NCBI GenBank assembly: GCA_017645785.1
Contig: JAGCNW010000019.1
Location: 62,001 to 126,000 of the forward strand
Direction of reading: 5' to 3'
DNA length: 64,000 bases
Source: Treponema sp.
GTDB taxonomy: Bacteria > Spirochaetota > Spirochaetia > Treponematales > Treponemataceae
Shown here one piece after another: positions 4,004 to 62,813 of the stretch. Position 1 is the stretch's first letter; each line of letters begins with the position of its first letter. The notes under the pieces were generated by a model that made no database searches, had not been told where the DNA came from, and saw only the letters and a list, made by a program, of their open reading frames with translations. The position numbers and the translations under genes are program-made.

Positions 4004-6502
4004 ATGTTAACATTAAAATTTGGCGGAACCTCGATGGGAAACGCCCGTCGCATTCTTGACTCGACGGACATTGTAATCGAACAGCAGCAAAAAGAGCGCG
4101 TCAGCGTAATAGTTTCGGCTGTGGCCGGAGTTTCAAATAAATTGCAGGAAAGCATCGACGGCTCAATCCGCGGCGAAAATCCCGAGCGCTTTGTAAAGGA
4201 CTTGCGCGCGGTTCACCAAGAAATTTGCCGCGAGCTCCAGTCCAAATTGCCGGGCTTTGACAGCGACGCGGTTATGAAAAGCCTTGAGGACAAGTTTGTT
4301 GAATTGCAAAATCTTTTGACGGCCGTCGTCGCTTTTGGTGAATGCACCGACACCGCTCACTGCCGTATTATGGGAATGGGCGAATTGCTTTGCGTTCCGA
4401 TTGTCGAAGCGGTTCTCCTTGCCAAAAAGCAAAGCGTGATCGTTCTCAACTCCCGCAAATTCATCATGGCCACCGGAAATCAAAAAGAGGCCAGCGCCGA
4501 CTACGCAAAGACGGCTGAGCTTTTGCGCCCCTACTGCGACGGAGAGTACAAGTCGCAGACAAGAATCATTTTGATGCCAGGCTTTGTTTGCTCATGGATT
4601 CCCGGCGAGGGAGCGGAGCCGGTGCCCGGCCTTTTGGGAAGGAACGGCTCGGACTTTAGCGCGGCGATTGTCGGCGCCTGCATGGGGTCAAAGAAAGTCC
4701 AGTTCTGGACTGACGTTGACGGCATTTACACGGCCGACCCCCGCATCGTAAAGGACGCGATTTTGGTCGACGACATGACATACGAAGAGGCGATGGAGCT
4801 TGCCTTCTTTGGCTCTAAAGTTCTACATCCAAAAACCTTGGCGCCTCTTGCCGCCAAGGGAATCGAAGCCTGGAGCCTCAATTCGCTCAACAAGAGCGCG
4901 CGCGGAACTAGAATCGGAAAGGGCCCCTTTGATAATTCAAAGGAAGGCGCCAACTTTGTCCGTGGCATCTCTTGCCTTAAAAAGACTTCGATAATTTCTG
5001 TAAGCGGAAGCGGAATGCGCGACCGCACAGGAATCGCAGGCCGCATTTTTGACGCGGTCTCGCGCGCGGGCATTTCTGTTTTGCTCATCACCCAGTCATC
5101 TTCTGAATACACGATAAGCTTTTGCGTCCGCGACGAATCGGCCGGCCGCGCCAAGGAAGCGATCGCGAACGAGTTTGACTTGGAAATCCAGGACGGCGTT
5201 ATAAATCCGGTTGAAATTTATTCCAACTGCGCGATTGTTTCCATCGTCGGCGACGGAATGAAAAAACAGCTTGGAGTTGCCAGCCGCTTCTTTGACTCGC
5301 TCGCCAACGCCGGAGTCAGCATCCTTGCCATCGCGCAAGGTTCCAGCGAGCGTTCGATCAGCGCCGTAATCGACGGAGAGATGGGCGACATCGCGGTCCG
5401 CATGGCCCACAACTTTTTCTTCCACACAGCGCAGTCGATCCAAGTGTTCGCTTTTGGAGCGGGAAACATCGGCGGCACTTTGCTTGACCAAATCGGCGAG
5501 CAGCAAGAAAGCCTCCTTGCGCAGGGAATCGACATCAAGGTTATGGCTATCTCCACCGTTGACGGCCTTATGATTGACGAAAACGGAATCGACCTTAAGA
5601 CTTGGCGCGAGGCGACAAAGAAAATGCCGCTCAAGACAAGCGTTGACGAAATCCTAAAGTTCGTGCGCGAAAAAAAGCCGCTCAATCCGGTATTCGTTGA
5701 CTGCACGGCAAGCTATGACTTGCCCGAGCGCTACCTTGACATTTTGGAAGCGGGAATGTCGATCGCCACTCCCAACAAGCGCGCCAACTCGATGACGATG
5801 GACTTTTACAAAAAGCTTAGAAAGACGGCCAACAAAAAGCGCCGCCGCTTCTTGTACGAGACCAACGTAGGAGCGGGACTTCCTATCATCGACACTTTGC
5901 AAAACTTGTTCCGCTCCGGCGACAAGCTTACCCGCTTTATGGGAATCATGTCAGGCTCTCTTTCTTACATCTTCGGCCGCTTGGACGAAGGCGTTCCCTT
6001 TAGCCAAGCCGTTCTCGAAGCCAAAGAAAAGCGCTACACCGAGCCCGATCCCCGCGACGACCTCAACGGAATGGATGTTGCCCGCAAGGGACTTATCATC
6101 GCGCGCGAAGCTGGCTACGACATCGAACTTAGCGATGTTGAGGTTTTAAAAGTTTTCCCCGAAGACTTTGACACGTCAGGCTCTACCGAAGAATTCTTGA
6201 AGAGGCTTCCGCAAGTTGACGACTACTTTAAGAAAAAAATCGACGCGCTCAAAAAGAACAACAAGGTCTTGCGCATGGGCGCCACAGTCCAAGACGGAAA
6301 GTGTACAGTCGGAATGTTTGAGGTTGGCCCCGAAGATCCCCTTTACGCGATTAAGGGCGGCGAAAACGCCTTTGTGTTCTACACTGCGCGCTACCAGCCG
6401 ATTCCCCTTACAGTTCGCGGCTATGGAGCGGGAGCGGGCGTAACAGCCGCCGGCGTCTTTGGCGACATTCTCCGCACGGTAAGCTTCAATACGGAACGGT
6501 AG
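4004..6502 (+). CDS. thrA: Bifunctional aspartokinase / homoserine dehydrogenase
   Basis: The 832-residue fusion carries out two steps of the aspartate pathway toward threonine and methionine: phosphorylation of aspartate and reduction of aspartate semialdehyde to homoserine. The kinase part starts LTLKFGGTSM (residues 2-11) and runs to about 300. Two ACT regulatory repeats follow (TGIAGRIFDAVSRAGISVLLI and LGVASRFFDSLANAGVSILAI regions). The dehydrogenase part starts near residue 475 with FGAGNIGG and contains ETNVGAGLPIIDTLQNL. Layout and length match E. coli ThrA/MetL. ACT repeats imply amino-acid feedback, but which amino acid is not decidable here. No thrB or thrC is adjacent. Confidence 0.95.
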   Translation: MLTLKFGGTSMGNARRILDSTDIVIEQQQKERVSVIVSAVAGVSNKLQESIDGSIRGENPERFVKDLRAVHQEICRELQSKLPGFDSDAVMKSLEDKFVELQNLLTAVVAFGECTDTAHCRIMGMGELLCVPIVEAVLLAKKQSVIVLNSRKFIMATGNQKEASADYAKTAELLRPYCDGEYKSQTRIILMPGFVCSWIPGEGAEPVPGLLGRNGSDFSAAIVGACMGSKKVQFWTDVDGIYTADPRIVKDAILVDDMTYEEAMELAFFGSKVLHPKTLAPLAAKGIEAWSLNSLNKSARGTRIGKGPFDNSKEGANFVRGISCLKKTSIISVSGSGMRDRTGIAGRIFDAVSRAGISVLLITQSSSEYTISFCVRDESAGRAKEAIANEFDLEIQDGVINPVEIYSNCAIVSIVGDGMKKQLGVASRFFDSLANAGVSILAIAQGSSERSISAVIDGEMGDIAVRMAHNFFFHTAQSIQVFAFGAGNIGGTLLDQIGEQQESLLAQGIDIKVMAISTVDGLMIDENGIDLKTWREATKKMPLKTSVDEILKFVREKKPLNPVFVDCTASYDLPERYLDILEAGMSIATPNKRANSMTMDFYKKLRKTANKKRRRFLYETNVGAGLPIIDTLQNLFRSGDKLTRFMGIMSGSLSYIFGRLDEGVPFSQAVLEAKEKRYTEPDPRDDLNGMDVARKGLIIAREAGYDIELSDVEVLKVFPEDFDTSGSTEEFLKRLPQVDDYFKKKIDALKKNNKVLRMGATVQDGKCTVGMFEVGPEDPLYAIKGGENAFVFYTARYQPIPLTVRGYGAGAGVTAAGVFGDILRTVSFNTER

Positions 6503-6510
6503 CGATAAAC

Positions 6511-6576
6511 GTCATTCCCGCGCTTGTCGCGGGAATCTTTTGGACGAAAGATTGTCGGGTCGAGCCCGACAATGAC
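6511..6576. repeat. Family A hairpin repeat, inverted pair
   Basis: Two units face each other: GTCATTCCCGCG..CGCGGGAATCTTT at 6511-6540 and AAAGATTGTCGGG..CCCGACAATGAC at 6547-6576. The flanks GTCATT and AATCTTT are fixed while the stems differ yet remain complementary. The first unit begins eight bases after the thrA stop. Confidence 0.85.
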
Positions 6577-6594
6577 ATATTTTAAGGATATAAA

Positions 6595-9370: not shown

Positions 9371-9426
9371 CGCCCCCATCCGTTACGGTTTTGCCAGTAA
9401 AGCCGCAAGGGTATTGAAAACAGTCA

Positions 9427-9582
9427 AAAAACGCGCGCGAAGGCGCGGGGCGGCCGGCGGCGGCACTCGCATTGCGGCTGACGCGATAGCGGCAGCGTAA
9501 AATAGTTTCAAACGCAATGCGTGTGAAGCGACGATATCTAGCGGCGCCGACCGGACGCATCCGCAACTGGGAGCGCGTTTTT
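9427..9582 (+). repeat. Structured covarying element, copy 1
   Basis: Closing helix P1: AAAAACGCGC (9427-9436) with GCGCGTTTTT (9573-9582). Inside: conserved GCGAAGGCG (9437-9445); helix GCGG/CCGC (9445-9448 with 9561-9564); helix P3 9454-9462 with 9545-9554 containing one bulge; helix P4 CGCATTGCG (9468-9476) with CGCAATGCG (9513-9521); hairpin 9477-9496; then AAATAGTTTCAA and AAGCGACGATATCTAGCGG shared with copy 2, and AACTGGGAG just before P1'. It lies between the tRNA-Leu terminator and the pyrG promoter. Function unknown; the A and T tracts on P1 could also make it a terminator in either direction. Confidence 0.75.
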
Positions 9583-9586
9583 GGTA

Positions 9587-9626
9587 TTGAATTTTATTTC
9601 TCTTGCGGCTATACTTGCAAGTTATG
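9587..9626 (+). promoter_or_regulatory. Leaderless promoter and start of pyrG
   Basis: TTGAAT (9587-9592), 17-base spacer, TATACT (9610-9615), then eight bases to the ATG at 9624. No Shine-Dalgarno fits in the gap, so transcription should start at or next to the ATG. Confidence 0.6.
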
Positions 9627-13487: not shown

Positions 13488-15020
13488 ATGAATAATCTTG
13501 TATTATTTATAGCTCTCCCGCTTGCTGGAGTGGTTCTTGGATGGACAATTCGCTGGCTGTATGCCAGATTTCAATTATCTGCGTCAGAACAAAAGGCTGA
13601 ACGTTTAAGACAGGATGCAATTAGAGAAGCTGAAGCTCAGAAAAAAGAAATTTTGCTTAACGCAAAAGATGAACTCATTCGGGAACGAAACCAACAGGAA
13701 CGGGAGAATCGCGAGCGCCGCGCGGAAGTGCAGCGCTACGAGGCGCGCGTAAGCCACAAAGAGGAGTTGCTTGACCAGCGCGCCGCCCAATACGACAAGC
13801 AGGACAAGGAATTTGTAGAAAAACTTGCCGCTTTGCAAAAGCGCGAGGGCATTGTCCAGGCTCAGGAAGAGGAATATAGGCGCGAATTGGAGCGCATTTC
13901 CGGCCTTACAGTGCAGGAAGCCAAAGACCTTATCATTAGGAATTTGGAAAACGACGCCCGCCACGACGCGCAGGCCCTTTTGAACAAGGTTGAGCAGGAA
14001 TCCCAGTTGAACGCCGAAAAAAAAGCGCGCGACATTCTTGTTTCCACAATTCAAAGAATCGCCACAGAAACCACCGGAGACATTACCGTCGCCACAGTGT
14101 CGTTGCCTTCTGACGAAATGAAGGGCCGCATCATCGGCCGCGAAGGACGCAACATCCGCGCTTTGGAAACTTTGACCGGCGTTGACATCATCATCGACGA
14201 CACGCCCGAAGCGGTAGTAATCTCTTGCTTTGATCCCGTCCGCAAGGAAATCGCCAAGGAATCTTTGGAGCGCCTCATCTCGGACGGCCGAATCCATCCG
14301 GCCCGCATCGAGGAAATCGTTCAAAAGGTTACCCGCGAAGTTCAGAACAAGATTTACGAAGAAGGCGAAAAAGCCTTGTTTGACTTGGGAATCCACAACA
14401 TGCCGACGGAAGGCGTCCGCGCCTTGGGCCGTTTGCATTTCCGCACAAGCTACGGACAGAACGTTTTGGTCCACTCAAAAGAAGTCGCCGAGATCGCGGG
14501 CCTTTTGGCCGCCGAGTTGGGCGCCGACCGCGAGTTGGCCAAGCGCGCCGCGATTTTGCACGATATAGGAAAGGGCGCTGAGAATGACAGCGACCAGAAC
14601 CACGCCGAAGTTGGCGCCGAAGCGGCGCGCAAGATGGGCGAGGCTCCTCTTGTTGTAAACGCGATCGCCGCCCACCACAACGACATCGAGCCTGGTAGCC
14701 TTGAGGCGATAATCGTTCAGATTGCCGACGCGATAAGCGCGGCCCGCCCCGGAGCGCGCAAAGAAACCGTTGACAATTACGTCAACCGCTTGGAAAACCT
14801 TGAAAAGATTGCCGAAGGCTTTAGCGGAGTCGAAAAGGCTTACGCAATTCAGGCTGGCCGCGAGCTTAGAATTCTTGTCAACAATGAGAAGATTCCTGAC
14901 GGAGACGTCAAGGAATTGGCCCGCAAGATTGCCAAGCAAATCGAAAACGACTTGCGCTATCCTGGCCGCATAAAGCTGACCATGATTCGCGAAACCCGCA
15001 TCGTAGAGTACGCGAGATGA
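13488..15020 (+). CDS. rny: Ribonuclease Y
   Basis: RNase Y is a membrane-anchored endonuclease that starts mRNA decay. The 510-residue protein shows the family order: one N-terminal membrane segment (LVLFIALPLAGVVLGWTI), a long charged coiled coil to about residue 195, a KH domain with MKGRIIGREGRNIRALE near 208-224, and an HD domain with AAILHDIGKG near 358 and a later AAHHNDIEP. The end is the usual RVVEYAR-like IVEYAR. Its stop codon lies in the first copy of a 21-base direct repeat. Confidence 0.96.
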   Translation: MNNLVLFIALPLAGVVLGWTIRWLYARFQLSASEQKAERLRQDAIREAEAQKKEILLNAKDELIRERNQQERENRERRAEVQRYEARVSHKEELLDQRAAQYDKQDKEFVEKLAALQKREGIVQAQEEEYRRELERISGLTVQEAKDLIIRNLENDARHDAQALLNKVEQESQLNAEKKARDILVSTIQRIATETTGDITVATVSLPSDEMKGRIIGREGRNIRALETLTGVDIIIDDTPEAVVISCFDPVRKEIAKESLERLISDGRIHPARIEEIVQKVTREVQNKIYEEGEKALFDLGIHNMPTEGVRALGRLHFRTSYGQNVLVHSKEVAEIAGLLAAELGADRELAKRAAILHDIGKGAENDSDQNHAEVGAEAARKMGEAPLVVNAIAAHHNDIEPGSLEAIIVQIADAISAARPGARKETVDNYVNRLENLEKIAEGFSGVEKAYAIQAGRELRILVNNEKIPDGDVKELARKIAKQIENDLRYPGRIKLTMIRETRIVEYAR

Positions 15021-15183
15021 TCCTATCGCGTTTTGCATAGGAAATTATCCACAGGCCCGCTCACGCGGGCTGGCAATATGCAAGGTAGGACTGGTCAAGG
15101 CGCGCTTCGCTTAAAGCCTTGACTCAGTCCTTTTGCGGCGCGAATGAAATTTTCGCGCCGCAATGATCCTATCGCGTTTTGCA
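15017..15183. repeat. Hairpin cluster framed by a 21-base direct repeat
   Basis: The same 21 bases starting ATGATCCTATCGCG occur at 15017-15037 and 15163-15183. Between them lie a family B hairpin (15040-15077), a 15-pair hairpin with one bulge (15087-15101 with 15116-15131) and a perfect 10-pair hairpin GCGGCGCGAA/TTCGCGCCGC (15135-15161). Confidence 0.8.
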
Positions 15184-15211
15184 AAAAAAAACCGCCCGAT
15201 GGGCGGTTTTT
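15184..15211. terminator. Bidirectional terminator between rny and the 15384-15965 gene
   Basis: Tract of A, then ACCGCCC (15191-15197), GAT, GGGCGGT (15201-15207) and a T run. It can stop transcription from rny and from the opposite gene. Confidence 0.85.
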
Positions 15212-15259
15212 CGTTTTAAAGCGCTTTATTTTAGACTGGCCAATTTTCGGCGTGCCAAT

Positions 15260-15375
15260 AAAACAGGCGGAAGCGGGGTTCAAACCGACGCAAACTTAGG
15301 ACACGTTAAGCTAATCGCTTTGCCCTAAAAGTACCTCGTTTGCGGGCGGTTGGGTTCCCGCTGGGAGCCTGTTTT
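15260..15375 (+). repeat. Structured covarying element, copy 4 (shortest)
   Basis: P1 AAAACAGGC (15260-15268) pairs perfectly with GCCTGTTTT (15367-15375). AGCGGG (15272-15277) pairs with CCCGCT (15357-15362). P3 AACCG-A-CGCAAAC (15283-15295) pairs with GTTTGCG-GG-CGGTT (15338-15351). The apical part forms TTAGG/CCTAA. The GGAAGCGGGG start and TGGGAGCC end match the other copies in place. It lies just downstream of the stop of the minus-strand gene. Confidence 0.7.
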
Positions 15376-15383
15376 TTTTGGGC

Positions 15384-15965
15384 CTAGTGGAAGGCCAGCC
15401 TGAAGTAGACGGCCAGGGTGTTGTCGTAATTGTTGTAGCCGGTGGGCAAGAAAATGTAGCTGGCTCCGACTACGGGAATGATTCCCTTGCCTTTTTTAAA
15501 GTCGTATTCGACCGCCAGCCTAAAGCCGTTGCCCCATTTTGTCTTGTCGATTTTTCTGTAGCGGGAGTTCAAGTCTTCCCAGTCGTGGCGGACGCCAAGC
15601 GCGTAGGCCAGCGAAAACGAAAGGTCTCCTATTCCTGGATAAAATTGAAGGCCTGCGAAAAATAGGGGAGTGGCGTGGTTTGTGCAGTCTCCGCCGCTCC
15701 AAATAAAGTCGAACATTGTTTGAAAGCCGCCCAAAAAATAAAGCTGGTCGGTCAATTTTAGGGTGATGCCGGCGTCGGTGTAAAGAATCATTCTGGCGTA
15801 ACCCCTGTTCATCGTGTCGCTGACGTTTGATTTTAGGTTGTCGTCGCCGTAAAAAGTGTATCCGCTTCCAAGCGCGAACTGGAATCCAAAGAAATTGCGC
15901 TCGTTTTCCGCAAAAAGCGCGGCGGAACAAATGAAAAATGCGGTAATTAATAGAAACTTCTTCAT
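15384..15965 (-). CDS. Secreted beta-barrel-like hypothetical protein
   Basis: A 193-residue protein with a clear signal peptide (MKKFLLITAFFICSAALFAE, cut after Ala). The mature part is rich in aromatic and Gly residues in alternating patterns (FFGFQFALGSGYTFYG, ARMILYTDAGITLKL, SFSLAYALGVRHDWED) and ends AVYFRLAFH, as expected for a small outer-membrane beta barrel. I do not recognise a named family. It is a single gene, convergent with rny, with the structured element and a shared terminator between them. Confidence 0.75.
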   Translation of the reverse strand: MKKFLLITAFFICSAALFAENERNFFGFQFALGSGYTFYGDDNLKSNVSDTMNRGYARMILYTDAGITLKLTDQLYFLGGFQTMFDFIWSGGDCTNHATPLFFAGLQFYPGIGDLSFSLAYALGVRHDWEDLNSRYRKIDKTKWGNGFRLAVEYDFKKGKGIIPVVGASYIFLPTGYNNYDNTLAVYFRLAFH

Positions 15966-16990: not shown

Positions 16991-17246
16991 CTAGGCAAAT
17001 GAAATCATAAGTAATATAAAACGCTCTCGGGAAAATCGAACGGCCTTACTCGCGGTTGCGTCTTTTTGGGCGTAACAGTAAGATTAACGCGCAAAGCGAT
17101 TGCCCGCTCGCGCAAGCGAGCAAGTAAATAATTTCCTTACGCAAAACAGAGGGCTTGCCCGATGTAGCGGCCGTCCGCATTTTCCCTACGCGTTTTAATT
17201 GCTTGGCTTGTGTTTGCCCAGAACAAACGCAACGGTAAACAAGAGA
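16991..17246. other. Noncoding region with repeat debris
   Basis: No gene is supported here. It holds one inverted family B repeat at 17099-17136 (ATTGCCCGCTCGC..GCGAGC..AAATAATTTCC), short inverted repeats and no clear promoter. The structured element copy 2 follows directly. Confidence 0.6.
17099..17136 (-). repeat. Family B hairpin repeat
   Basis: On the minus strand it reads GGAAATTATTTACTTGC, then a GCTCGC-TTGC-GCGAGC hairpin, then GGGCAAT. Confidence 0.7.
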
Positions 17247-17396
17247 AAAGCGGCGCGAAGGCGCGGGCGGCATTGCGAAAACATTCTGTTTGCGCCTGCC
17301 GCATGAGCGGCAGCTTAAATAGTTTCAAGGCGCAAACAGCATGTAGCGACGATATCTAGCGGTTTCGCGATGCCGAACGCAACTGGGAGCCGCTTT
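17247..17396 (+). repeat. Structured covarying element, copy 2
   Basis: P1 AAAGCGGC (17247-17254) with GCCGCTTT (17389-17396). P3 GGCATTGCGAAA (17269-17280) with TTTCGCGATGCC (17363-17374), 12 pairs with one G-T. P4 CTGTTTGCGCC (17286-17296) with GGCGCAAACAG (17329-17339), 11 perfect pairs. P5 TGCCGC-ATGA-GCGGCA (17297-17312). Unpaired conserved parts match copy 1: GCGAAGGCG, AAATAGTTTCAA, AGCGACGATATCTAGCGG, AACTGGGAG. It sits between convergent mrp and dus genes. Confidence 0.8.
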
Positions 17397-17424
17397 GTTT
17401 TTATTTTTTTATCAATGCGCTTGA

Positions 17425-18483
17425 TTATTGTAAAGCTTTAAAACAATCGTCGGGCTGCTCGTTAAAGTAGGCGCGGAAAGTGTCTTGCGCTTCTTGGGGA
17501 GTGGCCGCGTTGAGCATCTTCATTTTAATGTAATGGCCAAAGGTAAAGTTGTCGCAGTAGTAGGAAAAGAAGCGCTGCATGCGGCTCTTAAAAAATTCCG
17601 GCGGCTGAAACTCTTGCAAAAGCGCGATGTAGTCCAAGCCGGTTTGCATTAGGTCGATGTTTGTGTCATTGCCGCGCTCGACGCGGCAATCTTTTTGCGA
17701 GCCGGAATTTTTGTCTTGAAAAGATTGTCGGGTCAGGCCCGACAATGACAAGGCGCCGCGCAGTTGGGCGAAAATCCAAGGCTTTTGAACGGAGGCCCTG
17801 CTTATCATCAATCCCGCGCAATCAGGGCAATCCGTTAGCGCGGCGCCGGCGCTTGGCGCGTCCTTTACGTTTCCATTGTAAATCACATCCACTCCGCGCC
17901 CCTTTAGGCGCTCGGCCAATCGCTGGGCGTAATAGCGGCGCGGCGGCCGGCTAAGCTTTTCCCTTTGCGTGCGCGGATGCAGGACAAGGCGTTGGACGCC
18001 AGAGTCGCAGAGGCCTTGGCAAAAATCGTAAAAGCCTTCTTCGTTAAACTTTTCGGCTCCGAGGCGGAGCTTTACGCTAAGCCTAAAAGCGGGCGCGGCT
18101 TTTTCCATCGCGCGTTTCACTCCGCGAACCATAGCGAAAGTTTCTTCTTGCGGCTTTAGCATCCAGGCGATGCCCGCGCCCGAATGAACGATTTCCGGCG
18201 CCGAGCAGCCCATGTTGATGTCGATTCCAATTCCGCCGAGCGGGGCAAGGACATTGACCGCGGCCGCCATAGAATCGGCTTCCTTGCTTGTGAGCTGCCA
18301 AACTATTTTTTGCGGGACCGGCCCGTTCATCAAATAGTATTTTTCAAAGGGCCCTTTTTGCATCAGCGTGGGAGCGTTTATCATTTCCGTGTAGTATTCG
18401 TCCGGGCCGCCAAATTTTTCTACAAGGCGGCGGAAGGCCTCGTGGCTAAGCGTCGCCATCGGCCCTGCAATCAGTTGCGTCAT
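17425..18483 (-). CDS. tRNA-dihydrouridine synthase carrying an in-frame repeat
   Basis: Dus enzymes reduce uridines in tRNA with FMN. The 352-residue protein shows INMGCSAPEIVHSGAGIAWM (catalytic Cys near residue 94), SVKLRLGAEKFNE, LVLHPRTQ and YNGNVKD, then GLMISRASVQKPWIF; it is closest to DusB-like members. Residues about 245-273 (LTRQSFQDKNSGSQKDC..) are encoded by a family A repeat pair at 17665-17749 inserted without a frameshift or stop; without it the length would be about 324, normal for the family. The insert falls between the barrel and the helical C-terminal domain, so activity may be kept. Confidence 0.9.
   Translation of the reverse strand: MTQLIAGPMATLSHEAFRRLVEKFGGPDEYYTEMINAPTLMQKGPFEKYYLMNGPVPQKIVWQLTSKEADSMAAAVNVLAPLGGIGIDINMGCSAPEIVHSGAGIAWMLKPQEETFAMVRGVKRAMEKAAPAFRLSVKLRLGAEKFNEEGFYDFCQGLCDSGVQRLVLHPRTQREKLSRPPRRYYAQRLAERLKGRGVDVIYNGNVKDAPSAGAALTDCPDCAGLMISRASVQKPWIFAQLRGALSLSGLTRQSFQDKNSGSQKDCRVERGNDTNIDLMQTGLDYIALLQEFQPPEFFKSRMQRFFSYYCDNFTFGHYIKMKMLNAATPQEAQDTFRAYFNEQPDDCFKALQ
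17665..17749. repeat. Family A repeat pair inside the dus reading frame
   Basis: Units GTCATTGCCGCG..CGCGGCAATCTTT (17665-17694) and AAAGATTGTCGGG..CCCGACAATGAC (17720-17749) face each other inside the coding sequence and are translated through. Confidence 0.85.
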
Positions 18484-18495
18484 ATTAATATTGTA
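18481..18495 (-). promoter_or_regulatory. Leaderless-type -10 box of the dus gene
   Basis: On the minus strand TACAAT (18490-18495) is followed by six bases and the ATG at 18483. A -35 match is poor. No ribosome site is present. Confidence 0.45.
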
Positions 18496-18511
18496 GCGTA
18501 AATTGATTTTT

Positions 18512-21911: not shown

Positions 21912-22253
21912 ATGCAAAAGATTCAAGTCGCCTACAAGGACATAGTTTTGCCGGGCGGCGGCCCAAACGAGGAATTTTTGGCCTCCCTTAGAAATCAATT
22001 GAAGGATTTGGAAGCCCAGGGCCAAGAAGTCATGCTTGTTCCGGAGCTTTCCGCCCAGGATTGCAAGGACGTTGACGCCGCCCTGGAAGCCACCGCGGCC
22101 TACAAGCACTGCGCCCGCCGCGTAAAGGATTGCCAAAGCGTAAAGGGCTTTGAGATTCCCGCCGTTTTCGCTTCGATGGAGCGAGGCGGCGAGCTGGCCG
22201 ACAACTTCAAGGCGGAATTGTTGGAAAAACATCCGCATTATGTGTTTGAGTAG
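21912..22253 (+). CDS. Hypothetical protein ending in a repeat-supplied stop
   Basis: A 113-residue soluble protein (MQKIQVAYKDIVLPGGGPNE..), of unknown function and without a motif I recognise. GGAGGTGG about six bases before the ATG supports the start and its being a real gene. The stop TAG at 22251-22253 overlaps the first bases of a family A repeat (TAGATTGCC..), so the repeat insertion may have set the present C-terminus, which ends KHPHYVFE. Confidence 0.7.
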   Translation: MQKIQVAYKDIVLPGGGPNEEFLASLRNQLKDLEAQGQEVMLVPELSAQDCKDVDAALEATAAYKHCARRVKDCQSVKGFEIPAVFASMERGGELADNFKAELLEKHPHYVFE

Positions 22254-22322
22254 ATTGCCGCGTCAAGCGCGGCAATGACAGAGGGCGGCTTTGTCATGTT
22301 CGGGCTTGACCCGAACATCTTT
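22252..22322. repeat. Family A hairpin repeat, inverted pair
   Basis: Units at 22252-22279 (AGATTGCCGCG..CGCGGCAATGAC) and 22293-22322 (GTCATGTTCGGG..CCCGAACATCTTT). The first provides the stop codon region of the upstream gene. The remaining 150 bases to the next gene contain its promoter and AT-rich sequence only. Confidence 0.85.
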
Positions 22323-23473: not shown

Positions 23474-24088
23474 ATGGACAAAATTCCTGAAGCGTCAAGA
23501 AGAAGGCTTGCCTTGCTTTCGGCCCTTTTGGCTTCGTACAAAGGGGAAAAAATCACTTCGATCCAAATTCAAAAGATGACCGGAATAGACCGCGCCCTGA
23601 TACGCAAGGACATTTCGCTTGCGGGCTTTAAGGGCGGCGTTTCCAACGGCTACAAGGCGCAAGACTTGCAAGAGGCGGTTAGGGCGGCTCTAAAGCTTCC
23701 GCTTCCAGGCCAAAAGCGCTTTTGCTGCATTGCGGGCCTTGGAAAGCTAGGCGCGGCCTTGATGCAAAGCGGAATCTTTGACGAGTCGCCATTTAAAATT
23801 GTGGCGGGCTTTGACAGCCGCGTAAACAGAACGGAAGTTTTGAGCGCGGACTTTCCCCTTTACCCCGCGGCAAAGATGGAGACTGTGATTCCAGAGTCAA
23901 AGATCGAGTTCGCGATTTTGGCGGTGGAAGACGACCAAGCCCGCTTGATGGCCGAGCGCTTGGCGACCAGCGGCGTAAAGGGAATCGTAAACTTTACGGG
24001 TGAGATTTTGGAAGTTCCGGCCGGAGTGGTGGTGGAGAACGTTTCGCCGCTTTTGGCCTTGAACAATATCTGCGCGAAACTGAATTAG
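23474..24088 (+). CDS. rex: Redox-sensing transcriptional repressor Rex
   Basis: Rex senses the NADH/NAD+ ratio and represses fermentation and respiration genes when NADH is low. The 204-residue protein has an N-terminal winged helix (SRRRLALLSALLASYKGEKITSIQIQKMTGIDRALIRKDIS region), a Rossmann domain with GLGKLGAALM near residue 87, and the C-terminal swapped helix (NVSPLLALNNICAKLN). The ATG at 23474 is chosen for the GAGGTGG site at 23459; an upstream GTG at 23462 is inside that site. Two Rex boxes upstream indicate autoregulation. serC follows 57 bases later. Confidence 0.95.
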   Translation: MDKIPEASRRRLALLSALLASYKGEKITSIQIQKMTGIDRALIRKDISLAGFKGGVSNGYKAQDLQEAVRAALKLPLPGQKRFCCIAGLGKLGAALMQSGIFDESPFKIVAGFDSRVNRTEVLSADFPLYPAAKMETVIPESKIEFAILAVEDDQARLMAERLATSGVKGIVNFTGEILEVPAGVVVENVSPLLALNNICAKLN

Positions 24089-24092
24089 CGAA

Positions 24093-24122
24093 AAAGATTG
24101 CCGCGTCGCGCGCGGCAATGAC
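24093..24122. repeat. Family A hairpin repeat, single unit
   Basis: AAAGATTGCCGCG..CGCGGCAATGAC, four bases after the rex stop. Confidence 0.8.
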
Positions 24123-24145
24123 ATATAGAATTACAGGAGAAAATT

Positions 24146-26517: not shown

Positions 26518-26550
26518 AATAAAGAGATAAGCGCAACATTTAAGGTGAAC

Positions 26551-26803
26551 AAAAAAACGCGCGAGGGAGCGGGGCGGCTGACGGCAACACTACGTCGGGC
26601 TAGCCCTCCGTTTTGCTTTTGGAAATTATTTACTTGCGCGCTCTCGCGCGCGGGCAATCATTTTGCCTGTTTTAACAGCAGAAGCGACGAGCCGTGCGGA
26701 GCGCGTATGCGCGACTGCAGTACCTTTAGAGGCCTCGTTTCCAACGGAAACGAGATAATCTAGTGGTGCCGTCGGACGCATCTGCGACCGGGAGCGTTTT
26801 TTT
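26551..26803 (+). repeat. Structured covarying element, copy 3 with nested insert
   Basis: P1: seven A plus CGC (26551-26560) with GCG plus seven T (26794-26803). GCGG (26569-26572) pairs with CTGC (26782-26785). P3 CTGACGGCAACACTA (26578-26592) pairs with TAGTGGTGCCGTCGG (26761-26775), 14 of 15. Conserved GCGAGGGAGCGGGGCGGC start, GGACGCATC and GACCGGGAGC end. The apical part is enlarged by a family B repeat (26621-26658) and further hairpins; AAGCGACGA and ATAATCTAG, adjacent in copies 1 and 2, are split apart here. Confidence 0.75.
26621..26658 (+). repeat. Family B hairpin repeat inside element copy 3
   Basis: GGAAATTATTTACTTGC, hairpin GCGCGCTCTCGCGCGC, then GGGCAAT. Confidence 0.7.
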
Positions 26804-26833
26804 TGTTTGTTGTTTTTGTTTGATTTTGCGCGC

Positions 26834-43438: not shown

Positions 43439-43517
43439 AAAGATTCCCGCGTCTACGCGCGGGAATGACACTTGATTCGCTATGTCATTGCCGGGCTTGG
43501 CCCGGCAATCTTTTTTT
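43439..43517. repeat. Family A hairpin repeat, inverted pair
   Basis: AAAGATTCCCGCG..CGCGGGAATGAC (43439-43469) and GTCATTGCCGGG..CCCGGCAATCTTTTTTT (43484-43517) between convergent gatB and the membrane protein gene. The second ends in a T run and could terminate gatB transcripts. Confidence 0.85.
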
Positions 43518-48718: not shown

Positions 48719-49366
48719 GAAAAAGGTGTGAAAGCGCTTGTTTTTGACATGGACGGAGTTTTGTTGGATTCCGAATCCATTTGCGACCAAATTTGGGAAC
48801 TTTTGGCCGAACAAATGGATTTGCCCGACATCCAGGCGGCCATATTGGAAAACCGGGGCTGCAACGAGGCCCTTATGGCCCAAAACCTGATTGCCCGCTA
48901 CGGGGAAGCCTTTGACTGCAAAAAGTTTTTCTCTGATTTTCGCGTTCATTTTCACGAGGTGGAGTTTTCCAAGGGAATTCCCCTTTTGCCCCATGTCCGG
49001 GAAACCTTGGATTACCTAAAGGGGCGCGGCTACAGGCTGGCCTTGGCCACAAGCACAAGGCGGACAACTGCGACCCGCCAGCTTAAGGCGGTCGGCATTT
49101 ACGATTTTTTTGAGGCTTGCGCTTTTGGCGACGAGGTGGAACATTCCAAGCCCGCGCCGGACATTTACCTAAAGGCCGCCAGGGAGCTTGGGGTGGAGCC
49201 GGATTTTTGCGCCGGAGTAGAGGACAGTCCAAACGGAATAATAAGCGTCCACAGCGCGGGCTTTAAGCCCATCATGGTTCCCGACAGAATTCTTCCCAGC
49301 GACCAAATAAAGAGTCTTTGCTGGAAAATCGGAAAGCCCCTTTCCACGCTGAAGGAATTTTTGTAG
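48716..49366 (+). CDS. HAD superfamily phosphatase (phosphoglucomutase-like subgroup)
   Basis: A 216-residue haloacid dehalogenase-fold enzyme. Motif I is VFDMDGVLLDSE near residues 7-18 (nucleophile Asp9), motif II LATSTRR, motif III Lys in HSKPAPDIYLKAARELG, motif IV GVEDSPNGIISVHSAGF. The helical cap after motif I and the GVLLDSE end place it with the beta-phosphoglucomutase/sugar-phosphatase group. Substrate not determinable. The start at 48716 follows the promoter; the longer frame starts in the promoter. It is followed by the 130-base composite repeat. Confidence 0.88.
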   Translation: MEKGVKALVFDMDGVLLDSESICDQIWELLAEQMDLPDIQAAILENRGCNEALMAQNLIARYGEAFDCKKFFSDFRVHFHEVEFSKGIPLLPHVRETLDYLKGRGYRLALATSTRRTTATRQLKAVGIYDFFEACAFGDEVEHSKPAPDIYLKAARELGVEPDFCAGVEDSPNGIISVHSAGFKPIMVPDRILPSDQIKSLCWKIGKPLSTLKEFL

Positions 49367-49367
49367 G

Positions 49368-49497
49368 AAAGATTCCCGCGTCAAGCGCGGGAATGACAGC
49401 GCTCGTGAGAGCGCAAGCAAATAATTTCCTTGCCATAATGCCGCATCGCGGCAGAATGACATAAATGTCATGTTCGGGCTTGACCCGGACATCTTTT
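49368..49497. repeat. 130-base composite repeat, copy 1
   Basis: Order: family A unit (AAAGATTCCCGCG..), inverted family B unit (49399-49429), hairpin TGCCGC-ATC-GCGGCA, and a facing family A unit (GTCATGTTCGGG..ATCTTTT). It is identical to 61411-61540 except for one base. Confidence 0.9.
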
Positions 49498-50614
49498 ATT
49501 CTACTGTCACAATCTCTTCTTCCAAGTCAAAGCCGAATTTTGCCTTGGCCTCTTTTTTGCACAAATCTATCAGGGCAAGAACGTCGGAGGCCTTGGCGCC
49601 GCCGTTGTTTATTATGATGTTTCCGTGGAAGGGGGCGATTTGGGCCCTGCCGGAGGATTTGCCCTTTAGCCCGAGTTCGTCGATGATTTTTCCGGTTGGG
49701 CGGCCAAAGGCATGGTTGTTCTTAAAGACGCTTCCGGCGCAGGGCGCCTTGTAGTGGCCCTTGTCCTTTCGGGCTTGGATGTAGGCGGCGGCTCTTTTGG
49801 ATATTTCTTCCTTACAGCCTTGATAGAGGGGGAATTCTACGGAAGTAACAATTAAATTGTTTACGCCCCCGGCAACCGTAACTGAATTGTGGTCCGGGCG
49901 ACCGTTTATGGAACTGCTTGCCATAAAGGGGGATTTTTTGTAGGCCCAGTCGGAGGGGGCGAAGGCCGCCTCTTTTTGGACAAAGGCGCGGGCTTTTTGG
50001 TCCCATTCAAGCCATTGGATTTTTTGGACAACCTGCGATATTTCCTTTTCAAAGCAGCGGGCGTTCATATAGACCGCGCCGCCAACCGTTCCCGGAAGGC
50101 CCGCGAATTCTTCAAGGCCGGAGAGGGCGTTTTCTTGCGCGAAGGAAACGAGGCTCGCCATGCTGGCTCCGGCGGCCGCGATGACGGTAACGGTTGGTTT
50201 AAGGATTGTCGGGTCGCGCCCGACAATGACAGGGGCGGCCTCCGTGTCATTGCCCGACTTGATTGACAGCCCGCGTGAGCGGGCAGTTGAATCACTACCT
50301 AAATCAAAACGGAGTATCGGGCAATCTTTTGTGACATCTATTTCCGACAATTTTTTGGTTGACACCACGATTCCGTCAAAACCGGCGTCGTTAAAGAGGA
50401 CGTTGGTTCCGCCTCCAAGGACAAAATAGGGGATTCCGCTCCTTTTAATCTCTGTCAGGGCAAAGGCAAGGGCTTCCGCGTCGCTTGGCTCCGCCAGAAG
50501 CGCGGCTTTTCCGCCAATCTTGAAGGAGGAATGATTGGCCAAGACTTCGTCAAAAAAAAGGCCGATTTTTGCGTTTTGCTTGAAACTTTCTACGACTTGC
50601 GTTATATTATACAT
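49496..50614 (-). CDS. murB: UDP-N-acetylenolpyruvoylglucosamine reductase with in-frame repeats
   Basis: MurB reduces the enolpyruvyl group to form UDP-MurNAc for peptidoglycan. The 372-residue product has NHSSFKIGGKAALLAEP, VLGGGTNVLFNDAGFDG, LSGLEEFAGLPGTVGGAVYMNARCF and KGHYKAPCAGSVFKNN (Ser of the proton relay). Residues about 95-138 (KDCPILRFDLGSDSTARSRG..VIVGRDPTIL) come from repeats at 50201-50331 read in frame; without them the length is near 329, typical of the family. The insert separates two FAD-domain strands. The start is chosen from the leaderless promoter and family start; the reading frame extends upstream. Confidence 0.92.
   Translation of the reverse strand: MYNITQVVESFKQNAKIGLFFDEVLANHSSFKIGGKAALLAEPSDAEALAFALTEIKRSGIPYFVLGGGTNVLFNDAGFDGIVVSTKKLSEIDVTKDCPILRFDLGSDSTARSRGLSIKSGNDTEAAPVIVGRDPTILKPTVTVIAAAGASMASLVSFAQENALSGLEEFAGLPGTVGGAVYMNARCFEKEISQVVQKIQWLEWDQKARAFVQKEAAFAPSDWAYKKSPFMASSSINGRPDHNSVTVAGGVNNLIVTSVEFPLYQGCKEEISKRAAAYIQARKDKGHYKAPCAGSVFKNNHAFGRPTGKIIDELGLKGKSSGRAQIAPFHGNIIINNGGAKASDVLALIDLCKKEAKAKFGFDLEEEIVTVE
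50201..50331. repeat. Nested family A and B repeats inside murB
   Basis: A complete family A unit (50201-50230) faces a second one whose halves, GTCATTGCCCGACTTGAT (50246-50263) and ATCGGGCAATCTTTT (from about 50315), are split by about 50 bases holding a family B-like hairpin CAGCCCGC-GTGA-GCGGGC. Confidence 0.85.
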
Positions 50615-61145: not shown

Positions 61146-61412
61146 AACGCGATTATTACCGTAGTCGGCTCGGACAAAGTCGGCATTGTAGCCAAGGTCA
61201 CAAGTTTTTTGGCGGAGCATTCCGCCAACATCGTTGACATCACCCAGTCAATCCTTTCTGGCAATTTTGTCATGATGCTTATGGTCAACCTTGACAAGGC
61301 CGACCTTACAATTGACAGCTTTAGGGACCAAATGTTGGATTTGGGAAAAAAGATTGGAGTCGAAATCAACGTGATGAACGAGGCCGTCTTTTCGGCCATG
61401 CATAGAGTATAA
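61143..61412 (+). CDS. ACT domain protein (YkvR/UPF0237-like)
   Basis: An 89-residue two-part ACT protein (AIITVVGSDKVGIVAKVTSFLAEHSANIVDITQSILSGNFVMMLMVNL), matching the small stand-alone ACT family annotated UPF0237. Such proteins bind small ligands, probably amino acids, but no function is established. The start at 61143 rather than 61134 is chosen from the promoter and family start. The stop TAA overlaps the first A bases of the composite repeat. Confidence 0.9.
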   Translation: MNAIITVVGSDKVGIVAKVTSFLAEHSANIVDITQSILSGNFVMMLMVNLDKADLTIDSFRDQMLDLGKKIGVEINVMNEAVFSAMHRV

Positions 61413-61540
61413 AGATTCCCGCGTCAAGCGCGGGAATGACAGCGCTCGTGAGAGCGCAAGCAAATAATTTCCTTGCCATAATGCCGCATCGCGGCAGAAT
61501 GACATGAATGTCATGTTCGGGCTTGACCCGGACATCTTTT
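61411..61540. repeat. 130-base composite repeat, copy 2
   Basis: Same order as 49368-49497, differing at one base (GACATGAATG here, GACATAAATG there). It lies between the ACT gene and convergent dgt; the last bases reach the dgt stop. Confidence 0.9.
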
Positions 61541-61541
61541 G

Positions 61542-62813
61542 TCAGAACGAAATTATTTCTTCGTACAGGCCAATGGCGAATTGGTCTGTCATTCCGCTTA
61601 TGTATTCAATCAAGCACTTTTGCCATGACTCGTCGTTCGTGATGTCAAAGACTTGGGGCGTGGCGTAGCGCAAAATCCGCTTGCGGTCGGGCTGCTTTAT
61701 CGGCGCGTAGTTTGTGTATTTGACAAGCCAGTCCTCGAAGTTTTCAAGCAATTTTGGAAAGTATCTCAGCGCGTTGTAAAGGCGGCCCCTTTGCGCGTAG
61801 ATTTGCGTCCGCATTAGGGTAGTGTAAATCGTTTCTATTACGTTGCGCGCGTAGTTTTGGAATTCCTTTAAGCGCCAGTGGGTGTAAATCTTTGAATAGC
61901 TGAACTTGTGCAATTCCACGATGAACTTAAAGTATTCGTCGCTAAAGGTGATTCCCCGTTCTGGGTCGCTTTGCTCGCACAAATCGACAATCATGTCGTT
62001 TATCAAGACTGTCGTGTTGACGGCCTTGCCTGACCTTAAGGCTTTTTGTCCCTTTCCTTCAAAGCCAAGGCTGCTTCCAACTATGTCGCGAAGCATTCTG
62101 TAGGAACCCATGTCTAAAAGGTGGTAGGTTCGGGCGTCCTCCAAGTCGCGGCCAAGGAAAGAAATTTTGTCGGACACTTTCACCACGCAGCCTTCCCAAG
62201 TGTAGGGCTGCAAGAGGCCAGGCCGCTTTATCGTGTACAAGTCTATCGCGTCGTCGCGCGGAATTATTCCCTGTTGGTGGATCTCTCCGCAATGGCTTAT
62301 GAGGCCGTCGCGAACCGCGTAGGTAAGGTCAAGGTTTCGGTGGATGCCTTCCGGGTCCGAGAGAGTTTCGATGTAGTCGGCGAAAAAGAGGCTGTTGCGC
62401 TCGTGCCAAAATTTTTTGGGAGCGCCCGCGCCTTCCTTTTGCTTTAGGAGGGAATTGAGGCATTCCTCTCCAAAGTGGCCGAAGGGAGCGTGGCCAATGT
62501 CGTGGCCCAGCGCGATGGCCTTTGTAAGCTCTGCGTTGAGTCCAAGGTATTTTGAAATGGTCGTCGCGACGCTGGCCACGTGCTGGACGTGCTCCATCCT
62601 TGTGCAAATGTGGTCGTTGCGCGGCGCGAAAAACACTTGCGTCTTGTGCTTTAGCCGGCTGTAGGCCTGGCTGTGAAGGATGCGGGTGTAGTCGCGCTCA
62701 AACTCGCTTCGGATGTCGTTGCCCCTTTCGTACAGGGCGGAGGAACGTTTAATCGCCTCTTGCCATTTTGGAGAGCCCTGGACTGTGGCGACGCCTTTGA
62801 ATGAGTCTTTCAT
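61542..62813 (-). CDS. dgt: dGTPase-like HD-domain triphosphohydrolase
   Basis: A 423-residue HD-domain protein that removes triphosphate from deoxynucleotides. Marks: SEFERDYTRILHSQAYSRLKHKTQVFF, TRMEHVQHVASVATTISKYLGL (first His), ALGHDIGHAPFGHFGEECLN (HD pair) and the later GLISHCGEIHQQG. It is three bases after the HD-GYP gene on the same strand, so the two are translated together. Role in nucleotide pool control is inferred from the family. Confidence 0.92.
   Translation of the reverse strand: MKDSFKGVATVQGSPKWQEAIKRSSALYERGNDIRSEFERDYTRILHSQAYSRLKHKTQVFFAPRNDHICTRMEHVQHVASVATTISKYLGLNAELTKAIALGHDIGHAPFGHFGEECLNSLLKQKEGAGAPKKFWHERNSLFFADYIETLSDPEGIHRNLDLTYAVRDGLISHCGEIHQQGIIPRDDAIDLYTIKRPGLLQPYTWEGCVVKVSDKISFLGRDLEDARTYHLLDMGSYRMLRDIVGSSLGFEGKGQKALRSGKAVNTTVLINDMIVDLCEQSDPERGITFSDEYFKFIVELHKFSYSKIYTHWRLKEFQNYARNVIETIYTTLMRTQIYAQRGRLYNALRYFPKLLENFEDWLVKYTNYAPIKQPDRKRILRYATPQVFDITNDESWQKCLIEYISGMTDQFAIGLYEEIISF

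Follow-up and report, generated by a model that had tools for sequence, protein, structure and literature searches.

Covarying fold-back elements dispersed in Treponema genomes, a probable family of non-autonomous mobile DNA

Introduction

MITEs are thought to be derived mainly from IS elements. Examples such as QMITE2 of Coxiella are short, non-coding and intergenic, and carry terminal inverted repeats and target duplications (PMC10969869). The BOX, RUP and SPRITE families of Streptococcus pneumoniae are small interspersed repeats found almost exclusively in close relatives. SPRITE ends in AAAA/TTTT and has a stem like that of a terminator, BOX has a modular, folded build, and members of these families seem to insert into one another; each family has some MITE features (PMC3049150). 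The CGTC and GTAG REP elements are dispersed, mostly intergenic palindromes of 20-40 bp, and some REP dimers lie within other palindromes. GTAG REPs go with RAYT transposases; CGTC REPs have no dedicated transposase and are found in Spirochaetes (PMC3733652).

Covariation of paired positions is commonly regarded as the strongest sequence evidence for a functional RNA. Integron attC sites fold as single strands into hairpins whose stems vary and whose unpaired features are constant, and they are used as DNA.

The window analysed here is a stretch of 64,000 nucleotides from a Treponema sp. genome. A preliminary description of it listed four intergenic segments closed by complementary arms, took them for copies of one structured element, and offered two readings, a dispersed structured RNA or a structure-dependent mobile unit that might also act as a terminator. 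We refer to the family under study as type A and to the window's own genome (2.82 Mb, 49 contigs) as G000. Type A probably belongs to the mobile DNA of Treponema, as a non-autonomous element of the fold-back (MITE-like) kind in which the folded DNA strand, more than an RNA, is likely to be the object of selection.

Members of the family in the window

Complementary closing arms are present at all four places where they had been described (Table 1). Each of the four segments has a better fold than every one of its own 200 dinucleotide-preserving shuffles (z of -3.38 for copy 1, -6.4 for copy 3, -3.9 for 15260-15375 and -3.9 for copy 4). Their membership in a single family holds for three of them, 9427-9582, 17247-17396 and 26551-26803, and is doubtful for 15260-15375. 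Model R1 was built from 17 genomic copies, and copies 1 and 3 match it partly by construction because both sit in the model. Copy 4 was left out of R1. The match to it spans its whole length and its helix P4 is damaged; on its R1 score copy 4 is therefore a member with two additional segments. An 87% identical long copy of it lies on contig C42. Part of the insert at 26592-26659 recurs at more than 10 places in the genome and also within relatives' elements, while the insert at 26689-26755 is also found in the long copies L030 and L031 and partly in L038 and L039. The block GCGAAGGCGCGGG, described as constant, is exact in copies 1 and 3 and in those two only.

Segment 15260-15375 was rejected as a type A member. 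It gives no R1 match at default filters in searches of the window and of the genome, and blastn of its own genome returns only the segment itself. With filters off it scores 21 bits, close to the reverse strand of copy 3 (22.4 bits); a plain terminator hairpin nearby scores 14.1 bits. It has the A-run/T-run stem of type A and an adjacent CTGGGAG, and its core is a separate element in relatives (L259, L310, L257). With 21 bits it is therefore a different element, named here type C, or at most a distant relative.

Table 1. Positions of type A copies, their parts and other hairpin elements in the window
Feature	Position	Strand	Remarks
Copy 1, type A element	9427..9582	+	upstream of pyrG; R1 171.8 bits over 9421-9587; closing arms 9427-9436/9573-9582
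Copy 1, outer arm P0 (AGCCGCAAG)	9401..9409	+	can pair with 9602-9610
Copy 1, P1 closing helix 5' arm, A-run + GC	9427..9436	+	P1 covaries in 17-copy alignment
Copy 1, conserved 5' internal-loop block GCGAAGG	9437..9444	+	columns mostly near-invariant
Copy 1, helix P4 5' arm	9464..9476	+	13-bp helix
Copy 1, hairpin P5 region	9477..9493	+	
Copy 1, conserved unpaired block AAAATAGTTTCAA	9499..9511	+	ATAGTT near-invariant
Copy 1, P4 3' arm	9513..9525	+	
Copy 1, conserved block and small hairpin P6 (GAAGCGACGATATCTAGCGG)	9525..9544	+	nearly constant in this genome
Copy 1, conserved 3' internal-loop block AACTGGGAG	9565..9573	+	
Copy 1, P1 3' arm, GC + T-run, terminator-like	9573..9582	+	
Copy 1, outer arm P0' (CTTGCGGCT)	9602..9610	+	immediately upstream of pyrG
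Type C, different hairpin element within stem AAAACAGGC/GCCTGTTTT	15260..15375	+	not a clear family member; closing arms 15260-15268/15367-15375
Copy 3, type A element	17247..17396	+	R1 168.7 bits over 17239-17403; same copy found in G035; closing arms 17247-17254/17389-17396
Copy 4, long type A with two internal segments	26551..26803	+	R1 72.2 bits over 26545-26808; closing arms 26551-26560/26794-26803
Insert in copy 4, ~68-nt hairpin element, named type D	26592..26659	+	
Insert in copy 4, within P6 block, GAGCCGTGCGG..GGAAACGAGA	26689..26755	+	
Short palindromes	6510-6577, 17664-17750, 22243-22322, 24086-24123, 43483-43513		
Short palindromes, continued	49361-49398, 49466-49496, 50194-50231, 61404-61441, 61509-61539		

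Structure and covariation

The type A body of about 150 nt is predicted to fold as one long bulged hairpin. Sequence and alignment give the order P1 (A-run + GC / GC + T-run), internal loop GCGARGG / RACYGGGAG, P2-P3, P4, ATAGTT and GTAGC-P6-GCGG. The 13-bp P4 is capped by P5 in most copies, and P5 is absent in L119-L121. Both sides of the loop inside P1, ATAGTT and the GTAGC...GCGG block are the constant parts. In many other species P6 is a small hairpin with changing sequence.

The helices covary, as had been proposed from the window, and the changes are compensatory. The 17 copies were aligned from sequence alone, and the RNAalifold consensus has 46 pairs; for 28 of them at least one copy has both sides altered. 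Pairing holds in 95.7% of the cells of this alignment, and both sides are altered in 114 cells, compared with 33 +/- 4 in shuffles (0 of 500 reach 114) and at most 19 with partners slid. Among 89 distinct sequences of the genus, in an alignment that was fitted to R1 and hence leans towards the model, both-side changes affect 40 of the 46 pairs, and the paired share of cells is 96.8%. Over these 89 rows P4 is paired in 99.0% of cells and changed on both sides at 13 of 13 pairs. The mean information is 1.27 bits in unpaired core columns and 1.18 bits in paired ones; the contrast of loop and stem therefore rests on the constant blocks and not on all loops.

P1 has 15 distinct 6-nt arms among the 19 copies of G000, where each of nine positions is paired in 12-19 of 19, and the same 9-nt arm at all six loci examined in G032. 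The pyrG site had suggested that P1 is the stem of a terminator that pre-existed at the target site. This was rejected: P1 is identical at the six G032 loci and A/T-run stems also occur between divergent genes, and P1 therefore mostly travels with the element. Content exchange within a kept stem remains a reading at some sites.

Copies in the genome and distribution in the genus

The count of four copies proved too low. With copy 1 as query, blastn of the own genome finds 28 places, 17 of them at E<=1e-10. R1, with 150 of 1366 first-look candidates scored, finds 19 copies of at least 142 bits; three further matches are weaker and lie below E = 0.001. In a search of 59 genomes with stricter filters, R1 matches occur in 22 of 36 genomes of the same genus and in none of 23 from other genera of the order. 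Copies per genome range from 0 (14 of the 36, several of these assemblies being incomplete) to at least 48 (G010, G032, G035); up to 48 candidates were scored per genome, and high counts are lower bounds. The close relatives by pyrG product are uncultured Treponema or Spirochaetaceae assemblies, several labelled gut. When 64 pyrG-product loci (1.08 Mb) were searched with R1, six were found to carry a match of at least 137 bits, and their PyrG is 96-99% identical to that of the window.

Carriage by phages was considered and rejected. Nine viral contigs contain a 17-base motif, the best R1 score among them is just 12.3 bits, and the 17-base matches are therefore taken as chance. Exact matches in viral contigs numbered zero for the type C core and zero for the G010 terminal repeat described below.

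Different elements at orthologous sites

Besides type A, further hairpin elements are found in these genomes. Types B and C were recognised by reading sequences. Type B was noted as a shell GGGACGCAG-A7..T7-CGTCGCTGGGACCCGCC around an inner core (L160:1780-1980 and 4960-5150, L161, L256:18640-18900, L314:15330-15500), and a similar shell surrounds type A in L015 and L017.

Copy 1 lies beside pyrG, the gene for CTP synthase (named by NCBIfam). This site was compared in ten assemblies, the window and nine others. It holds type A in three (window, L254, L257), type B within apparent remains of A in L258 (same assembly as G035), a 3' remnant of B in L314, element C in L259, a remnant of C in L260, and nothing in L255, L256 and L310. 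L254, L259, L258 and L314 share parts of the flanking arms around differing cores. The site at window 18484-18511 is empty in the window and in L254. It holds type A in L257, L310 and L314, A together with B in G035, a reversed type A inside 25-bp arms in L255, and B only in L256. At the 15260 site the arms that enclose C in the window enclose a different core in L255; type A occupies the site in L256 and type B in G035 and L314, L310 and L257 have C in other arms, and L254 has neither. Nesting is seen in copy 4 and also in L015 and L017, in which A is enclosed by a shell known from other places with another core.

Several smaller observations were made alongside. Type D (GGAAATTATTTAC-stem-GGCAAT with an adjoining hairpin) is found at window 17098-17138, 15040-15077 and 26592-26659, and was seen by eye within type A and type B copies of several assemblies. 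At L256:15600-15860, orthologous to window 15014-15388, 21 bp of intergenic sequence beside the element repeat, in inverted orientation, the 3' coding end of the neighbouring convergent gene; a template switch would leave such a copy. An apparent tandem duplication of a terminator and its flank adjoins a type B element at L160:1560-1800 (G035). Short palindromes of the form TGTCATTsCCGsG...CsGGsAATCTTT and its reverse are scattered over the window (Table 1), and their stems also vary in step between copies. A 172-nt block that holds such palindromes and a type D-like hairpin is repeated with 90% identity at 49368-49539 and 61411-61582, and is possibly a composite mobile unit.

Outer repeats and flanks

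In one species, G010, type A lies in a unit of about 213 bp (212-214 bp) with terminal inverted repeats of about 20 bp. Repeat arms with at most two mismatches number 164 in that genome (85 forward, 79 reverse). A direct repeat matching in at least 8 of 10 positions at exactly 10 bp flanks 5 of 19 complete copies, compared with 2 of 342 swapped flanks, and direct repeats at 8, 9 or 11 bp flank none of the 19. In the other genomes examined no target duplication signal was detectable. The G010-type terminal repeat is also present in G006 and G011 (loci L113, L418, L421, L422); most copies examined elsewhere have P1 plus mere traces of the outer repeat. Together with the patchy copy number, presence or absence at orthologous sites and nesting, the G010 inverted repeats and 10-bp direct repeats speak for the mobile-unit reading.

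Many of the listed repeat arms of G010 (e.g. L225-L253) are found in the first 300 or so bases of a contig, and the repeat may therefore be what breaks the assembly. It also contains a TATAAT that faces outward and might serve as a -10 promoter box.

Past the first 22 nt, the pairing of a flank with its own partner is on average better than with a swapped one. The mean local scores (own/swapped) are 14.5/9.8 in 19 copies of G000, 11.4/9.6 in 22 of G035, 11.9/9.7 in 19 of G004, 15.8/10.6 in 25 other copies and 12.8/8.1 in 20 further copies. The copies above the 99th percentile of swapped pairs number five in G000, none in G035, four in G004 and three among the 25 others. Some of the copies thus have an outer helix, P0. 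In G006 and G011 this helix takes in the G010-type terminal repeat, and in L256 it takes in the 21-bp inverted copy of the neighbouring gene's end.

Terminator-like ends and gene context

The ends of type A resemble terminators, in keeping with the terminator role suggested earlier. Of 86 copies (G010 left out), 73 have a run of T4 or longer 3' of the core, 68 have a run of A4 or longer 5' of it, and 63 have both. A family of domesticated host bidirectional terminators, kept for termination between genes, would explain this pairing of runs. It would also suit the position of three of the four window segments between convergent genes, a position that agrees with the ORF list of the window and that the family at large does not share. 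By a crude ORF rule, 23 of 84 copies lie between convergent genes, 21 lie among genes co-directional with the element, 24 between divergent genes and 16 with both genes opposite (one unclear). Termination between convergent genes is therefore not the common denominator. In addition, some 130 nt of constant-loop structure would be unneeded for termination, and the G010 copies displayed have no T-run directly after P1. A host terminator family is, in our judgement, a very improbable account of type A.

RNA or DNA

Type A could also be a functional structured RNA, acting in trans or as a leader or terminator, that is copied around the genome and owes its covariation to RNA selection. Constant loops beside covarying helices are as expected from such an RNA, and some copies lie directly upstream of a start codon (e.g. 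L193, L209, L210, L216). G-U pairs outnumber A-C mismatches in the element (98 and 46); some preference for the + strand therefore remains, as strand-specific selection would give. The frequency of G-U pairs itself speaks against an RNA-only reading. One pipeline (MAFFT, RNAalifold) was applied to 91 element sequences and to RNase P RNA of 30 genomes of the same genus. G-U occupies 99 of 3701 cells (2.7%) in the element and 211 of 2212 (9.5%) in RNase P, which makes it 3-4 times rarer in the element, and three random subsets of 29 element copies gave 2.8-3.2%. tRNAs were discarded as a control, those listed being copies of one tRNA-Leu, and RNase P was used instead. The scarcity of G-U relative to RNase P points to folding at the DNA level. 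The use of all four gene contexts, the 14 of 36 genomes of the genus without a match and the differing elements at the same site also argue against a structured RNA, which we hold to be unlikely. The second of the two readings offered at the outset, a structure-dependent mobile unit, thus fits better, and a dispersed structured RNA fits less well.

Covariation as such is about equal in the two data sets, with both-side changes in 708 of 3701 cells of the element and 438 of 2212 of RNase P. Cells are not independent in these comparisons, which are offered as plain proportions. The share of two-sided changes was counted along minimum spanning trees; it is 159/189 in P3+P4, 70/122 in P1 and 153/311 in P2 with its adjoining part. 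For the whole element it is 399/668, close to the 344/634 of RNase P. Since P1, the P2 region and the whole element resemble RNase P, rare intermediates or arm copying are supported for P3+P4 only.

Template switching (quasipalindrome correction) is a mechanism described in PMC8794818. It might by itself keep inverted repeats complementary, with no selection on structure, in copies that spread as ordinary MITEs. The concerted two-sided changes with few intermediates in P3+P4 agree with this, as does the 21-bp inverted gene end that adjoins the element at site 2 of L256. Template switching alone does not readily explain why some loop blocks are near-invariant across the genus as stems are rewritten, even if the averaged contrast is small (1.27 and 1.18 bits). 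Asymmetric bulges are kept as well, and arm copying would tend to erase them. We regard it as decidedly unlikely that this process acts alone, and infer that the fold is important at the level of DNA, with template switching adding some copying between arms.

Searches for enzymes and known families

Profiles PF01797 (Y1), PF00078 (RVT_1) and PF13808 (ISAs1-associated domain) were searched in 39 genomes of the genus, and PF01609 (DDE_Tnp_1) in G000, G010 and G035. Y1 has no match in G000, G035, G004 and G032 (the last three assemblies are 86-97% complete) and three matches in G010. RVT_1 has none in G000, G035, G010, G004 and G032. Y1 and RT each occur in 9 of the 39 genomes. Mobilisation by an HUH/Y1 enzyme or by RT was rejected, as no such gene matched in the window's genome. 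The repeat ends of G010 and the 10-bp duplication prompted our guess that the parent was presumably ISAs1-like; this was also rejected, with no match in the copy-rich genomes examined. The ISAs1-associated domain and DDE_Tnp_1 each gave zero matches in G000, G010 and G035.

A known Rfam RNA family was likewise rejected, as none of the copies scanned reaches a gathering threshold. In an Rfam scan of the whole window only a tRNA reached threshold. The best sub-threshold scores in a 261-bp stretch around copy 1 were isrK (16.8 bits) and Mahella-1 (16.3 bits), and six further loci with copies gave no match over an element. A match to a known family, named earlier as grounds for giving up a new one, is thus absent in Rfam, and a repeat resembling a transposon end does surround the element in some species. 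No description of the type A family or of such Treponema repeats was found in the literature covered, with preprints and most subscription journals outside coverage.

Discussion

The mobile element that we favour could work as follows. A transposase or recombinase supplied in trans would place the folded element, by copying or moving it, in intergenic sites and within other hairpin elements, and the constant loops would be recognition marks for that enzyme or for a host protein. The A-run/T-run ends may terminate transcripts arriving from either side, which would protect the genes next to the element. Pairing of the stems would be kept up in part by selection and in part by template switching at replication, in which one arm is copied onto the other. 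In G010 a composite with inverted ends of about 20 bp may have spread by ordinary transposition, marked by the 10-bp target duplications. Constant loops inside a MITE would be unusual if they had no function, which counts against this account, as do the negative enzyme searches, the lack of a duplication signal outside G010, the excess of G-U over A-C and the outer flanks of G035.

A more radical proposal is that the folded single strand is itself the mobile substrate. It would enter the loops of other hairpins, swap content within a kept stem and have its stems rewritten by template switching, and so spread and diversify with no dedicated transposase. The pyrG site, with three hairpin cores within related flanking arms in sister species, would be an example of such a content swap. 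We consider this proposal doubtful.

Type A has covariation like that of RNase P, yet it behaves like mobile DNA and has few G-U pairs. It is therefore well suited to testing how often covariation reflects DNA hairpins or arm-copying mutation and not RNA function. Several hairpin families are documented here in one host genus, where they nest in each other and replace each other at fixed sites.

Among described systems, integron attC sites share the folded strand with constant unpaired features. The closing arms of type A differ from copy to copy and lack the invariant recombination triplet of the attC consensus, and no cassette array was seen.

Type A resembles MITEs in that its body is too short for a transposase and it is non-coding and intergenic, with terminal inverted repeats in G010 and, at some copies there, direct repeats that may be target duplications (PMC10969869). 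It differs in an interior that is conserved in loop blocks and covarying in stems, and no parent IS was found among the families searched. Like REP elements it is dispersed and mostly intergenic; it is much longer and has several helices (PMC3733652). The GTAG REP tag stands at one end, whereas in type A the GTAG-like block lies in the interior, where some copies have GAAG or GGAG, and no RAYT transposase matched in the window's genome. The short palindromes of the window resemble the CGTC REPs as described there.

With BOX, RUP and SPRITE, type A shares a near confinement to close relatives, and with SPRITE A-run/T-run ends and a terminator-like stem; this likeness is one of described features, and the Treponema body is longer and multi-bulge, with strong covariation and constant loop blocks (PMC3049150). 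Elements of this kind are thus already known, as MITEs and as the BOX, RUP and SPRITE repeats, for which nesting is known as well. What is new in type A is a covarying body with constant loop blocks, the low frequency of G-U pairs, and the exchange of cores inside kept arms.
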